A stretch of 64,000 bases of DNA from Acholeplasmataceae bacterium. Its GTDB lineage: Bacteria; Bacillota_I; Bacilli_A; Acholeplasmatales; UBA5453. Under the pieces are notes generated by a model that had not been told where the DNA came from, made no database searches, and saw nothing but the letters and a program-made list of their open reading frames with translations. Position numbers and translations under genes: made by a program. The stretch spans positions 1 to 64,000 of the forward strand of contig DUQU01000019.1 of assembly GCA_012837645.1 (NCBI GenBank). Direction: 5' to 3'. Positions 25,217-33,980 of the stretch are shown one piece after another. Positions within the stretch are counted from its first letter, which is position 1. The number at the start of each line of letters is the position of its first letter.

Positions 25217-25380
25217 ATTGTAATAATTTCATCTTTAACATTATCTTTAAAATTTTCTTAGTGATAGTTTTGTCTTTAAGGTGCTTTAAACTGACTTTTT
25301 TAAAGTTAGTGTCTTAAAAAAAGAAAAATTCAGTCCTTTATCTTTTCTTATTTTAAGGTATAATTATCTTGAGGTGTGAA

Positions 25381-26316
25381 ATGGACGCTTTTTTAAAAGC
25401 CCGAGACAATGACTTGGACTTTTTTTATAAAAACCCTTTATATTTAGATATTCAAGATGAATTAGGTCATTCTTTACTTCATTATGCAATTTTAGGTAAT
25501 GCTCGTGAGGTTTTTTACTATTTGTTAAACAATAATATTAATACTAATATTGTTAATAAGAGAGGCGAAACGCCGCTCTTTGAAGCATTGCGGAAAAATA
25601 AAAAAGAAATGGTGATTAGTCTTTTAAATAAATATGCATCGGTAAATGTTTTTAATAATGAAAAGGAGTCACCACTTTTTATAGCGCTTTTTAAAGGAGA
25701 GCTGACTTTAGTGAAATTATTAATCGAAAACGGCGCCGATTACCTACATCTTAATAATAAAGGTGAATCAGCCTTGTTTGCTGCTTTAAAAGGTGGTTCT
25801 ATCGAATGTTTTAATTATTTGCTTACTTTACCTAAAATGCTTAAAAAACTTGATAAAAATGACAATACTTTGCTTCATTTAGCGAGTTCCTTTAGCAATG
25901 AACTGTTTTTAAAATATTTACTGGAAAAAGGTGAAAATCCCCATTTAGTTAATAAACATTTAGAACCTGCCATTTTTGTCGCGGCGCGTTTAAAATTAAT
26001 AAATAATGTCAAATTACTAACAAAATATGGGGCTTATATCGATGTTGTTAATAAATACGGCAATACTATTAGCGATCTTGCGCTCGAAAATGAAGACGTT
26101 GAACTTTTAGATTTTTTAACTTCTCATCGCCAGACGAGCGTTTATCGTAAAAACATTGAATCCAATCCATTAAGAGCTGCTGTTTTATTAAAAGCGGATG
26201 AAAAAATTGCTGGTTTATTATTAAAACATCCTCAAAAAAAGGATCAGTATCAACTGACCCCATTAGATTATGCTTTAAAATTAAAAAACAAACATTTAAT
26301 AAAACTATTAAAGTAG
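25381..26316 (+). CDS. Ankyrin-repeat protein
   Basis: Successive ankyrin-type repeats (DELGHSLLHYAILGNAREVFYYLLNNNINTNIVNKRGETPLFEALRKN...). ATG 25381 follows GAGGTG. Confidence 0.85.
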   Translation: MDAFLKARDNDLDFFYKNPLYLDIQDELGHSLLHYAILGNAREVFYYLLNNNINTNIVNKRGETPLFEALRKNKKEMVISLLNKYASVNVFNNEKESPLFIALFKGELTLVKLLIENGADYLHLNNKGESALFAALKGGSIECFNYLLTLPKMLKKLDKNDNTLLHLASSFSNELFLKYLLEKGENPHLVNKHLEPAIFVAARLKLINNVKLLTKYGAYIDVVNKYGNTISDLALENEDVELLDFLTSHRQTSVYRKNIESNPLRAAVLLKADEKIAGLLLKHPQKKDQYQLTPLDYALKLKNKHLIKLLK

Positions 26317-28176: not shown

Positions 28177-28788
28177 ATGATAAAAATCTTAATTGCTTCC
28201 TTAAATGAAAATAAGATTGAAGAAATAAAAGCAACTTTTAAAAACACTAAAATTGAGTTTCTTTCTTTAAGAGATTTAAAAGATGGAGAAGATCTGCAAG
28301 AAACGGGCTCGTCTTTTCAAGAAAACGCTTATTTAAAAGCGAAACACTTCGGCGATAAACACCACTTAATAACGCTTGCTGATGATTCTGGGTTAATGGT
28401 TAAAGCGCTTAATAATAGACCAGGAATTAACTCAAAAAGATATGCTGGTGATGATACTTTAAATAATCGTAAACTCTTAAAAGAATTAGCAGGAAAAAGT
28501 AGAAAAGCAGTGATGCAAACTGTCATCGCTCTTTATGATCCTAATACTAAGAAGGCTAGTTATTTTGTTGGTAAACTAAAAGTAGTTATAAGCGAAAAGC
28601 CAAAGGGAGAATATGGCTTTGGTTATGATCCGCTTTTATATTTGAAAAAGTACCAAAAAACTTTAGCAGAGTTAGAGCCAAGTTTAAAAAGAAAACTTTC
28701 CCATCGGGGGAAAGCTTTAAAGAAATTAGCAAGGAAGTTAAACAAGAAAAGAGGTAAAAATGGAAAAAAAGATTATTTTAGCGGCTAA
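28177..28788 (+). CDS. RdgB/HAM1 non-canonical purine NTP pyrophosphatase
   Basis: ASLNENKIEEIK, ADDSGLMVKALNNRPGINSKRYAG, GYDPLL. Confidence 0.92.
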   Translation: MIKILIASLNENKIEEIKATFKNTKIEFLSLRDLKDGEDLQETGSSFQENAYLKAKHFGDKHHLITLADDSGLMVKALNNRPGINSKRYAGDDTLNNRKLLKELAGKSRKAVMQTVIALYDPNTKKASYFVGKLKVVISEKPKGEYGFGYDPLLYLKKYQKTLAELEPSLKRKLSHRGKALKKLARKLNKKRGKNGKKDYFSG

Positions 28789-29611
28789 AAATTATTTAGA
28801 AAATCCCGTTATTGATTATCGTTTAATGGGTGGCATGAGTAATTATGTTGTTGTCGTTAAAGATGGAAATAAAAGATACACAACACGAGTGACAGGTGAA
28901 GACGCTCATCTTTTTGTAAGTAGAGAAGAAGAATTGTATCACTTAAAAAGAGCGGAAAAATTAAAGATCACTCCTAAAACGATTTATTTTGATTTGAAAA
29001 GTGGTGTTAAAATCACCAACTATGTTAAAGGAGAAATACTCTCTGATATGGATCCTAATAATTATTTGGAAGAGGTAAGTGCTGTTTTAAAAACCATTCA
29101 TCAAAGCCCTTTATCTAAATATGATTATAATTATTTTGAACGTCTCGAAAAGTATCAAAGTATTAATGAAAATTTAAGCCAAAATTATTATCAAACTAAA
29201 CAATTGTTAAAAGCTAAATACCAACAATATTATCAAAAAATACCACTAGTATTTACTCATGGTGATGCCCAACCATCAAACTTTATTAAAGGCGAGAAAA
29301 TGTATATAGTAGATTTTGAGTTTAGCGGTAATAATGATCCTTATTTTGATATTGCATGTTATGGTAATATCGATTTTAACCATGGTCTTAATTTGTTAAA
29401 GGTTTATTTAGGGAGAACGCCTTTAAATAGCGATTTACATCGACTTTACTATCAACGCGCTAGTCAAGCTTTACAATGGCATTTAGTAGCGCTATATAAA
29501 GATAAAATAGGATTAAGCGAGAAATTAAATATCCCTTTTAAAGCGGTCGCGGATAATTATTTAAAAGAGGCGATGACATTATTAAAAGAGTTGATAAAAT
29601 TTGAACAATAA
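28760..29611 (+). CDS. Choline kinase/aminoglycoside phosphotransferase-like kinase (LicA-like)
   Basis: VFTHGDAQPSNFI catalytic loop and YIVDFEFSGNNDPYFDIACYG. Confidence 0.85.
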   Translation: MEKKIILAAKNYLENPVIDYRLMGGMSNYVVVVKDGNKRYTTRVTGEDAHLFVSREEELYHLKRAEKLKITPKTIYFDLKSGVKITNYVKGEILSDMDPNNYLEEVSAVLKTIHQSPLSKYDYNYFERLEKYQSINENLSQNYYQTKQLLKAKYQQYYQKIPLVFTHGDAQPSNFIKGEKMYIVDFEFSGNNDPYFDIACYGNIDFNHGLNLLKVYLGRTPLNSDLHRLYYQRASQALQWHLVALYKDKIGLSEKLNIPFKAVADNYLKEAMTLLKELIKFEQ

Positions 29612-32468
29612 GCAAGAAAAACTAAATAAATTATTTTCTAACTTGGCTACTTCTATTCAAGAAGATTTTTACTATTTGAATTTAGAGATTGGACAACTGC
29701 TTTTTAATGATGGTCAATTAAAAGAAGCCTCCGAGTATTTAATTCTTAGTTTGCCTTATTTTAAACATCATGATAAAAATCAACTTTATTTAGAAACTTT
29801 AGAAAATATTATTACGGCACTTCTTGTTTTAGAAAATGAAACAGCACTTAAATATATTTACCTTTATAAAGAAGCCTTGCCAATCTTGGAAGAAGGCCAA
29901 TATCTTTTAAAAATAATTGCCTATCATAAAACATTTAAGCAACCTTATCTTCATTTAATCGATGATTTGAAATACTACCGGATTGATAAAAAGATTTTAA
30001 CGGAATTACTTTTAGAAAGAATTGCTCTCACGAAAGATGAAAATGTTTTAAGAGATGATATCGCTTATTTAAAAACTATCGCTACTAATGAAGACTTAGA
30101 AAAACTCTTTCAGTTAGAATTAAGACTTTTATATGAAGCAGAAGAGATAGAAGCATTAAAGGAAAAGTTAGATGATTCAATTATTAGCATTTATTATCAA
30201 CTTTTAATAAATATTAAAGAAAACAATTTTAAACTAGTTCAAAAACTAGAAACTGAATATGAAAAAAACTTCTCTTTATTGTCGTTAAAAGAGCAAAAAG
30301 TGCTTTTTCAAAACTTAACTAATTATTACTCAAAAAGCGATTTAAAGAGTCGAGATTTTTATCAAAAAAAATTAAAAGAAGTTGAAAAAGAGTTAAAAAA
30401 GCCTCTTAAAAAAGTCAAACCTCAATTGGTAATTCCTAAAATAACAACTCAAGCGGAGCCTTTAAAAATTAAAAAAGAAATTAAAGTTAAAACTGCTGAA
30501 GCTTTTTATTACTTTGAAGAAGTATTCAATAAACTTAAAGAACTGCCTTACGCGACTTCTTTAGAAGATAATTTAAGAGAAACATTAACGATAATCAATA
30601 ATTATTTTAATTTTAGTGATCTTTTAATTGTGCTCGATAAAAGTTATTATCATTTTAAAAAAGGACGGTTATATTTAAAAGATTTTAATGAGGAAAAACT
30701 TTTAAAATCTCCACTTGGTATAGCTTTAAACAATCAAGAAGATCATGTTTTTTTAACAGCTGAAACTAAATACAATTATAACATTATTACTGATAATCTT
30801 TTTCTTGATGGTGCTGTTAAACAAGTTTTTGTTTATTATTTAGGGAAAAGGCAAGCAATAATGTTTTATCAAGAAGAGTTATATCCACTTTATGAGGAGG
30901 ATTTAAAGTTAAAACTTCTTAGTGCTTGGCTAGGTTTTTATTTAAAAACAGTAAATAGTTTTACAAAAAAGGAGCGTTTGACTGAAATTTATCAATCTTT
31001 CTTTAAAAATGATTTTTTAACGCTCTTTTATTTAGAGAATGATTACCTTTATGGCAATGATAATTTTAAGAAACTATTTTTAACAAAATCACAATTATCT
31101 TTAGATAGTTTTTTATTAAAATGGCCTTTTCATGAACGCAATCAATTAAACGAGGCTTTAACGGCCGTTTATCAAACTAAAGCCCCCCTCACTCTGACTT
31201 TAAAGTATTTAGAAAAAAGTTATTTAATAACGCTCTTTTATGAAACGGTTATTTACGGTTCCTTAACTGACGTTACTGAACTTGTTAAAGAGTTAGAAAG
31301 GGCGATTATTAAGGCCAATTATGGAACTAATGATGATTTTCAAACGCTTGTTAAGTTTAAAGAAGATTTCTCAAAATTAAAGGGTGAAAAACGCACCTTT
31401 TTATTAGTTTCTTTAAAAGAAGAGCAGCAATTAGCTAAAATTTACGGTAAAGAAGAAATTTTAAGACGTTTAAGAGCTAAAATGGTTGTTTTTAAAGAGG
31501 AGGCTATTTATCAATATGATGGTAGTAGTTTTCTAGTTAGTTTACCTTTTAATGATATTAGAACTGTTAATAATTATTTGAGAGAGTTGGCTTTAAAAGA
31601 TTATTTTTTGATGGGAGTTTTAAGGTACCCTGTTGAAACTAAAGAAAGTGCTGTTGATAAAATTTTAACTTATTTATCTTTAGCGCATCACTATGCTAAA
31701 TTAAATCGTCTTCCTTACTTTTATTTTAAGTATGACCTTTATCAAAAAGATAAATATGAAAGTGAATTATTGGCTCAAATTTTAACACTTATTGAACAAC
31801 AACAGTTGCAGTTGCAATTTAAACAAATTATCAATTTAAAAACTAATAAGGTTTATGCTTATTTAGTCGATCTTTTTACGGAAAGCCTCTCAATTAAAAG
31901 TGATTATTATCGTTATTTAGCGAAAGCTCATAATCAGTTAGCTTTCTTAGAAAGATACTTATTAAAAGAGAGCTTTAAAGCTCTAGCGGAAATTTATCAA
32001 AAAACCGGCAAATATTTAAAACTGGCATTAGTAATTAGTGAAGACACTATTAAAGAACGAGGTTTTAACGCCTATTTAATTGGTCTTTTTAAAACTTATC
32101 AAATTCCTTATCATCTCATCGATATTATCGTAGTTAATGCTCATAAAAAAAGTTATTTAAAATTAACAGAATTATCCGAGTTGGGAGTTTTAATTGGTAC
32201 TAATGAGTTACAGCAATTGAGTTTAAGCACTACTAAAATATTTTATTATCATGAGAAAATAAACCGCTTCGCTAAAAAAGAGTTATCTTTTATTAGTTAT
32301 TTAAAAGGCTTTGCAGTAGAAAACGATCTTAAATTAATTTTTACTAATATCGAAGATGATGTTTTAATTGAACAATTAAGAGAACTAGACATTAGTTATT
32401 TAGAAGCGGGTGAAAGTTATCAAAAATGGAGCTTAGCAGAATTGTTAGCTTTTATTGAAAAACTATAA
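29601..32468 (+). CDS. TPR-GAF-like protein with degenerate GGDEF and EAL domains (TTG start)
   Basis: N-terminal TPR-like helices; GGDEF-like layout with IYQYDGSSFLVSLP in place of GGDEF; EAL-like layout LQFKQIINLKTNKVYAYLVDLF ... LKLIFTNIEDDVLIEQLRELDISYLEAGESYQKW. Confidence 0.6.
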   Translation: MNNKQEKLNKLFSNLATSIQEDFYYLNLEIGQLLFNDGQLKEASEYLILSLPYFKHHDKNQLYLETLENIITALLVLENETALKYIYLYKEALPILEEGQYLLKIIAYHKTFKQPYLHLIDDLKYYRIDKKILTELLLERIALTKDENVLRDDIAYLKTIATNEDLEKLFQLELRLLYEAEEIEALKEKLDDSIISIYYQLLINIKENNFKLVQKLETEYEKNFSLLSLKEQKVLFQNLTNYYSKSDLKSRDFYQKKLKEVEKELKKPLKKVKPQLVIPKITTQAEPLKIKKEIKVKTAEAFYYFEEVFNKLKELPYATSLEDNLRETLTIINNYFNFSDLLIVLDKSYYHFKKGRLYLKDFNEEKLLKSPLGIALNNQEDHVFLTAETKYNYNIITDNLFLDGAVKQVFVYYLGKRQAIMFYQEELYPLYEEDLKLKLLSAWLGFYLKTVNSFTKKERLTEIYQSFFKNDFLTLFYLENDYLYGNDNFKKLFLTKSQLSLDSFLLKWPFHERNQLNEALTAVYQTKAPLTLTLKYLEKSYLITLFYETVIYGSLTDVTELVKELERAIIKANYGTNDDFQTLVKFKEDFSKLKGEKRTFLLVSLKEEQQLAKIYGKEEILRRLRAKMVVFKEEAIYQYDGSSFLVSLPFNDIRTVNNYLRELALKDYFLMGVLRYPVETKESAVDKILTYLSLAHHYAKLNRLPYFYFKYDLYQKDKYESELLAQILTLIEQQQLQLQFKQIINLKTNKVYAYLVDLFTESLSIKSDYYRYLAKAHNQLAFLERYLLKESFKALAEIYQKTGKYLKLALVISEDTIKERGFNAYLIGLFKTYQIPYHLIDIIVVNAHKKSYLKLTELSELGVLIGTNELQQLSLSTTKIFYYHEKINRFAKKELSFISYLKGFAVENDLKLIFTNIEDDVLIEQLRELDISYLEAGESYQKWSLAELLAFIEKL

Positions 32469-33980
32469 GAGATGACTAACTCCTACTAGTAAAGAGCGAA
32501 AAATACGGTAAAAAATATTTTTGTTGTCTAAGTCTTTCAGACTCATCTGAGTTGATTTAGCAATCGTTTCATCTAAAAACTTTTTAATTTCTTGTAGGGT
32601 TTTACTTTGATAAAACCAAACGGTATTTTCAAAGTGTAAATAAAAGCTTCTAAAATCAAAATTAACAGTACCAATAGCGGCGCTAGCACCATCGATATAA
32701 ACAATTTTTGAATGAATAAATCCCGGTGTATATTGATAGATATAAACGTTTTTAATGTCAACCAATTCTCTTAAATAGTATTTAGTGACGACATAAACAA
32801 ACTTTTTATCGGGTATTTTAGGAATGATAATAGTTACTTTAACACCGCTTAAAGCTTGGATTTTAATAGTATTAATTATTTCCGAGTCGACAATAAAATA
32901 AGGGGTAGTAATAAAGATTTCATCTTTAGCTGCGTAAAGCATTTGGGTAAAGAGATTTTTAGTAGTATAGTTTTTTAAAAAAGGAGAATCGTGATAAGGG
33001 ATGACGTAACCATCATAAGCAAAGTTATTAGTAGGTAAATGGTCAGTTAAAGTTAGTTTATCGGGATTATATAAATTCCAGGCTTCGATAAAAGAAGCAG
33101 TCATCGCAATCACTGCGTCCCCTTCTAAAAAGATGGCAGCGTCGTGCCAATGACCAAACTTTTTTTTAATATTGACATATTCATCAGCGATATTAATACC
33201 GCCAGTGAAAGCTTTTTCGTTGTCGATAATAATCATTTTACGGTGGTCGCGATAATTAAGTGAAACTTGAAAACGCAATTTTAAAGGATTAAAAATAGTT
33301 GTTTTAATGCCTAACTGATTCATTCGTTGTTTGAAATTGCTTTTAACTTTAGAAGAGGTCCCAAAATCATCATATAACAGTCTTACATCGACGCCAGCGT
33401 TTATTTTATTAACTAAGATAGGTAAGATATGATTCCAAACTTGACCTTTTTCATCTAAAATAAAATAATGTAAAAAGATGCTCTTTTGAGCTTTTTTCAA
33501 CTCTTCGATAACTTTCGTTAATTTCGCTTCTCCTGAAGGTAAAAAGGTGAGATTTGTATTAGCAAAATAAGGCCAACCTTCGCCTTCTAAATAGGTAATT
33601 TGTTTTTGATAGCGAGCTGGTAATTGCGGTAATTCTTTAAAATAAGGCAGTAAAGATTCTTTTCTGATATTGTCTAGCTGGATAACTGTTTTTCTAATTT
33701 TCCTTCTTTGACTAAAAGGTTTAAAAGTGAGATAAAAGAGTCCGCCAAAAATGGGCGCTACTAACATCGGGACGACCCAACTCATTTTATAAACGGGTAA
33801 GTCATCGCTCTTTAAAACGATAATGACCATTATAAAGCTTAAACCATAATTAACAACTAATAAGTAATTATATTTTTCAGCCAAAAAAAGCACAATCAAG
33901 ACAAAAAATATTATTTGCAGTAACGTAATAAAAGCGATAATTGTAACTTTATTTGTTAAAAATCTTAATAGTCTTTTCAT
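32463..33980 (-). CDS. cls: Cardiolipin synthase
   Basis: Two HKD motifs (HRKMIIIDNEKAFTGGINIADEY; HSKIVYIDGASAAIGTVNFDFRS) and N-terminal TMs. Confidence 0.93.
   Translation of the reverse strand: MKRLLRFLTNKVTIIAFITLLQIIFFVLIVLFLAEKYNYLLVVNYGLSFIMVIIVLKSDDLPVYKMSWVVPMLVAPIFGGLFYLTFKPFSQRRKIRKTVIQLDNIRKESLLPYFKELPQLPARYQKQITYLEGEGWPYFANTNLTFLPSGEAKLTKVIEELKKAQKSIFLHYFILDEKGQVWNHILPILVNKINAGVDVRLLYDDFGTSSKVKSNFKQRMNQLGIKTTIFNPLKLRFQVSLNYRDHRKMIIIDNEKAFTGGINIADEYVNIKKKFGHWHDAAIFLEGDAVIAMTASFIEAWNLYNPDKLTLTDHLPTNNFAYDGYVIPYHDSPFLKNYTTKNLFTQMLYAAKDEIFITTPYFIVDSEIINTIKIQALSGVKVTIIIPKIPDKKFVYVVTKYYLRELVDIKNVYIYQYTPGFIHSKIVYIDGASAAIGTVNFDFRSFYLHFENTVWFYQSKTLQEIKKFLDETIAKSTQMSLKDLDNKNIFYRIFRSLLVGVSHLL

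Follow-up and report, generated by a model that had tools for sequence, protein, structure and literature searches.

A catalytically dead TPR-GAF-PAS-GGDEF-EAL protein conserved across the order Acholeplasmatales, with a probable role independent of c-di-GMP

The window, the whole 64,000-nucleotide stretch of Acholeplasmataceae DNA that was analysed, contains on its forward strand an open reading frame (29601-32468, start codon TTG) for a 955-residue TPR-GAF-PAS-GGDEF-EAL protein in which the catalytic residues of both the GGDEF and the EAL domain are replaced. We propose that this protein, single-copy and order-wide, probably neither makes, breaks nor needs c-di-GMP and most likely acts as a cytosolic scaffold whose output, by analogy, may concern RNA. 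Degenerate GGDEF-EAL regulators are a known kind, of which the order-wide protein is a variant; GGDEF-EAL proteins that have lost their activity are usually interpreted as receptors for c-di-GMP. Our literature search found no paper on the dead GGDEF-EAL protein of the order. A 2008 note reported 14 GGDEF/EAL proteins in Acholeplasma laidlawii (PMC2408644).

Domain architecture and replaced catalytic residues

An AlphaFold2 model built with 41 orthologues (mean pLDDT 84; pTM 0.41, leaving the packing of the domains uncertain) displays helical repeats followed by a disordered linker and by GAF-like, PAS-like, GGDEF and EAL folds. The TPR-like helical repeats span residues 4-265 (29610-30395). 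Pfam TPR matches are weak and occur in single family members; a PDB search with the family profile hits consensus TPR chains at E=1.4e-14. A GAF-like domain with a long signalling helix follows at residues 298-468 (30492-31004) and includes the family-invariant columns K353..R356-L-Y..K360. Residues 474-557 (31020-31271) have the strand and helix order of a PAS domain. Support for the GAF and PAS assignments comes from a collinear protein found outside the order, in which Pfam detects GAF_2 (E=1.9e-10) and PAS_3. The degenerate GGDEF domain occupies residues 559-710 (31275-31730) and the degenerate EAL TIM barrel residues 711-955 (31731-32465), both on the evidence of Pfam (GGDEF in orthologues), the model, Foldseek and residue mapping. 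The best Foldseek match of the model is PA0861, a PAS-GGDEF-EAL protein (5xge, E=3.1e-18), which also speaks for the PAS-like unit; the EAL part aligns with the MorA PDE at a TM score of 0.83, and the structural matches further include LapD and FimX. No membrane segment was found in the window protein, the top 19-residue hydropathy being 1.15 (membrane control 3.05).

Searches with the window copy gave a Pfam EAL match at residues 727-933 that falls short of the gathering score (E=6.5e-6), no Pfam GGDEF match, no NCBIfam match and, as a single sequence against the PDB, a chance match only. The orthologues have Pfam matches to EAL (to 1.8e-12) and GGDEF (to 4.1e-12) above curated cut-offs. In the PDB the family profile hits DosP GGDEF-EAL (2e-12) and FimX EAL (1.2e-7). 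By profile and fold the protein thus belongs to the GGDEF domain, EAL domain and TPR repeat families. An earlier note, made from the sequence, had described a GGDEF-EAL protein that was probably catalytically dead and joined to TPR and GAF-like regions. The profiles, the structure and the mapped residues all bear this out, and structure prediction, a check proposed there, yielded both the GGDEF and the EAL fold. Its domain layout was right for the TPR, GAF-like, GGDEF and EAL parts and missed the PAS-like unit between the GAF-like and GGDEF domains. The peptides quoted in it lie essentially where it placed them (KGEKR..RRL at 31380-31472, IYQYDGSSFLVSLP at 31506-31547, QLQLQF..VDLF at 31803-31877 and LKLIF..YQKW at 32328-32429), and the motif replacements claimed in it are real and family-wide.

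Residues were mapped by alignment with intact enzymes from the same genome, with family columns taken over 87 members (the window copy and 86 orthologues). The GGDEF site of the window copy reads DGSSF (640-644), the commonest family reading being D-F-N-Q-L; it does not have the GG[DE]EF loop of an active diguanylate cyclase. The EAL site reads LVD (755-757) and the EGVE position TNIE (915-918). Each motif expected of an active EAL phosphodiesterase, namely ExLxR, NxS, ExTE, DDFG, KxD, EGVE and QG, is replaced in the window copy, and the same GGDEF and EAL columns are replaced in nearly all family members. This holds for the ExLxR arginine, NxS asparagine, DDFG, KxD lysine, EGVE glutamate and QG glutamine. 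Those EAL positions that make contact with c-di-GMP show no conservation within the family. The first EAL glutamate is retained in 49 of the 87 members but is replaced in the window copy; relatives that keep it could still bind metal or nucleotide.

Distribution, origin and retention without c-di-GMP enzymes

A profile search of the family across 161 genomes of the order Acholeplasmatales gave matches in 131, mostly one copy of ~1000 residues, a count that includes a few weak matches to ordinary GGDEF-EAL proteins in incomplete genomes. Full-length copies (~1000 residues) are present in all five families of the order, and the named carriers include A. laidlawii, A. oculi, A. granularum, A. equifetale, Haploplasma modicum and Peloplasma aerotolerans. 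The listed genomes without the family all belong to one genus, g15, with genome sizes of 0.3-0.9 Mb, probably phytoplasmas. It is noted that two small g15 genomes, G065 (C6:183465-183845) and G075 (C26:18068-18481), carry an ORF of ~850 residues that matches GGDEF weakly (E about 2e-6) and apart from it no GGDEF or EAL. Across 395 genomes sampled from the whole class, matches over the full length are confined to the order, and elsewhere the GAF/PAS-GGDEF-EAL part alone is matched. Searching the genome contigs with the window protein alone gave no relative, while the family alignment gave 47.

The collinear relative outside the order, from another family of the class (G216, L193:5331-7544), is a GAF-PAS-GGDEF-EAL protein that aligns with the family from GAF to EAL (E=4.4e-70 against the family profile in a one-sequence search). 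Unlike the family, it has no TPR part and retains the EAL-region motifs ESLL, NLS, DDFG and EGVE together with a near-canonical SGDEF. It is probably close to the ancestral form. Since such a relative with intact EAL motifs exists, the protein of the order probably arose from an active ancestor by acquiring TPRs and losing catalysis.

The genome of the window itself contains active-looking GGDEF and EAL proteins; a genome search, proposed in the earlier note, gave 7 GGDEF matches and 4 strong EAL matches, and found no PilZ. Therefore c-di-GMP signalling probably exists in this genome. In contrast, 19 genomes that retain the protein (G011, G025, G026, G031, G032, G094-G098, G132-G139 and G160) have no other substantial EAL match, and their GGDEF matches are confined to this protein and a second dead-GGDEF protein. 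In some of them the EAL match is to the dead GGDEF-EAL protein, and in others there is no EAL match at all. The exceptions are a weak unexplained GGDEF match (E=0.0035) in G031 and a weak EAL fragment in G160. Completeness is at least 90% for 10 of the 19, reaching 98% in G025 and 99% in G026; some genomes are incomplete, and a very divergent cyclase could be missed. GGDEF matches of ~520 residues in these genomes were considered as GdpP or as active cyclases and rejected, as they have no DHH domain and carry loops such as SGLVF and TGSTF.

On the tree of the dead GGDEF-EAL protein, built by a quick method and containing long branches, the cyclase-free state requires six changes, each of them dictated by branches with good support. 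Two close cyclase-free pairs (dS <1) have dN/dS values of 0.073 and 0.095, and in five of six cyclase-bearing pairs the values are 0.02-0.09. The G025/G026 pair gives 0.22 at dS >1, a sign that cyclase-free copies may be evolving a little faster than others. Highly divergent pairs within genus g22 give 0.4-0.6; their dS has probably reached saturation. Where it can be measured, the protein is under purifying selection in cyclase-free genomes. Since 19 genomes retain it after repeated loss of cyclases, the simplest reading is that its conserved function needs no c-di-GMP.

These results bear on whether the protein is a c-di-GMP receptor of the LapD/FimX type, in which the dead EAL barrel would bind c-di-GMP and the TPR region would signal to a target. 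Like LapD and FimX, which appear among its structural matches, it has the dead domain pair; a genome with GGDEF and EAL enzymes and without a detected PilZ needs some receptor; and more than half of the members (49/87) keep the EAL glutamate. Unlike LapD and FimX, however, the family has no conserved ligand-binding residues, from the ExLxR arginine to the QG glutamine, and it persists in the 19 genomes without a recognisable cyclase. We thus consider a receptor unlikely. Of the earlier note's phrase "receptor or scaffold", the second half is likely and the first is disfavoured.

Operon context, a HEPN-like neighbour and a second dead-GGDEF protein

The gene for the dead GGDEF-EAL protein ends a forward-strand run in the window. 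It is preceded by a gene for an rdgB-like XTP/dITP pyrophosphatase, named from its sequence (28177-28788), and by a choline/thiamine-kinase-like gene of APH fold (28760-29611), which overlaps it by 11 bases. Within three genes upstream at 69 loci, rdgB was found at 65, making it the commonest conserved operon neighbour, a YfcE-like phosphoesterase gene at 48 and the choline/thiamine-kinase-like gene at 40. In most relatives the YfcE-like gene separates rdgB and the kinase gene; it is missing from this interval of the window (28177-29611). Farther upstream, a gene for an ankyrin-repeat protein (25369-26316) precedes a CPBP-like protease gene in the window, as it does in many relatives in the order, and is a conserved neighbour rather than a local oddity. 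No Rfam match was found across the window.

Directly downstream, 42 of 76 loci have a gene for a protein of ~355 residues. In the window this place is taken by a convergent cardiolipin synthase-like gene (32463-33980, reverse strand, overlapping the dead GGDEF-EAL ORF by 6 bases); the majority of relatives in its own family and in family f2 have the gene for the ~355-residue protein there. The ~355-residue protein (L138:6017-7057 and orthologues) is modelled confidently (pLDDT 92); where its helix 84-98 ends, R93-N-D-[IV]-V-G-H99 is invariant in 33 sequences. This motif, RND[IV]VGHP, agrees with the Rx4-6H pattern of HEPN RNases, but the protein has no match in Pfam, NCBIfam, PADLOC, the PDB or known folds, including any HEPN profile or fold, and we therefore name it HEPN-like only. 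It appears to be a new order-wide family reminiscent of HEPN proteins. The gene is present in 108 of the 161 genomes and absent from g15, which also lacks the dead GGDEF-EAL protein. A strict requirement of the latter for this neighbour was rejected, as the dead GGDEF-EAL protein is present without it in g4, in g18 and in the genome of the window. In family f3 the HEPN-like gene stands apart and is followed in 6 of 9 loci by a gene for a TypA/BipA-like GTPase, so named from its N-terminal sequence, on which an identity as LepA was rejected. In one closed genome (locus L092, G002:C1:1076000-1095000) the dead GGDEF-EAL and HEPN-like frames are both interrupted while the neighbouring genes are intact, reflecting either joint decay or an assembly error.

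The second conserved dead-GGDEF protein has ~522 residues, a membrane-PAS-PAS-GGDEF layout and an SGLVF-like loop; in the genome of the window it is encoded in the region of G000:C55:52358-52777 (L006:1462-3027; L196:5820-7385). At 9 of 10 loci examined its gene follows cdaA (Pfam DAC, E=2.8e-37 in one representative), with a gap of ~170-240 bp where measured, and it too is retained in cyclase-free genomes. In other Firmicutes cdaR takes that place after cdaA, and GdpP is a c-di-AMP phosphodiesterase with a degenerate GGDEF domain. By analogy with GdpP, the second protein may have a regulatory role towards the c-di-AMP cyclase. The TPR-bearing protein could act in the physiology of c-di-AMP, instead of that of c-di-GMP, by pairing with this protein encoded beside the diadenylate cyclase, and most of the same cyclase-free genomes do keep both. 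However, the two are encoded in different operons, and several g22 genomes keep the TPR-bearing protein with no detectable second protein; we regard such pairing as distinctly improbable.

Possible mode of action

A further possibility is that the dead GGDEF or EAL domain modulates active GGDEF/EAL enzymes by heterodimerisation. The window genome has active-looking enzymes, and in E. coli degenerate GGDEF domains have been documented to make heteromeric contacts (PMC5635695). Modulation cannot, however, be the conserved function in lineages without active enzymes, and we give it little credence. That the protein is a decaying relic, as the loss of all catalytic residues and the interrupted frame in the closed genome G002 might indicate, can practically be dismissed, being contradicted by its intact state in nearly every genome of the order, its low dN/dS and its fixed operon position.

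We therefore return to a scaffold that works without c-di-GMP. The nearest solved architectures by fold and profile, PA0861 and DosP, are c-di-GMP enzymes, whereas the EAL active site is replaced here. A parallel in mode of action is CsrD, which targets a regulatory RNA for decay and binds EIIA-Glc. CsrD (YhdA) of E. coli is a degenerate GGDEF-EAL protein that apparently neither makes, degrades nor responds to c-di-GMP and directs RNA decay (PMC5876332). The window protein shares with CsrD the degenerate domain pair and, as we infer, independence from c-di-GMP. In contrast to the membrane-bound CsrD, it has no membrane segment, carries TPR, GAF and PAS units in front and comes from a different bacterial group. 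The sequence relation seen between them is that of the shared domains, and we compare the two by mode of action without classifying the protein as CsrD.

We propose that the GAF and PAS units would sense a ligand, redox or metabolic cue, that the dead GGDEF-EAL pair would relay the conformational change, and that the TPR and EAL surfaces would hold partner proteins. The output might be RNA turnover or translation, by analogy with CsrD. This last step is the weakest, and taken by itself we consider it doubtful. An RNA-related output is preferred because of the HEPN-like neighbour in most relatives, the TypA/BipA link and the CsrD precedent, all of which are suggestive. Against it, the link to RNA depends on a motif in a neighbouring protein without any match to known families or folds, and the genome of the window does not have that neighbour. 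A bolder version, which we think rather unlikely, is that the whole order relies on the dead GGDEF-EAL protein as a core regulator, independent of c-di-GMP, that acts on RNA turnover or translation by way of HEPN-like ribonucleases of a new family whose gene lies beside its own.

To our knowledge, few regulators are known in small-genome, wall-less bacteria, and the present analysis points to two uncharacterised conserved partners in them. The lineages with no recognisable c-di-GMP enzymes offer a natural setting for testing an alternative role of the dead domain pair. A core gene of a whole order that outlives c-di-GMP in at least six lineages separates the ancestry of its domains from their function.
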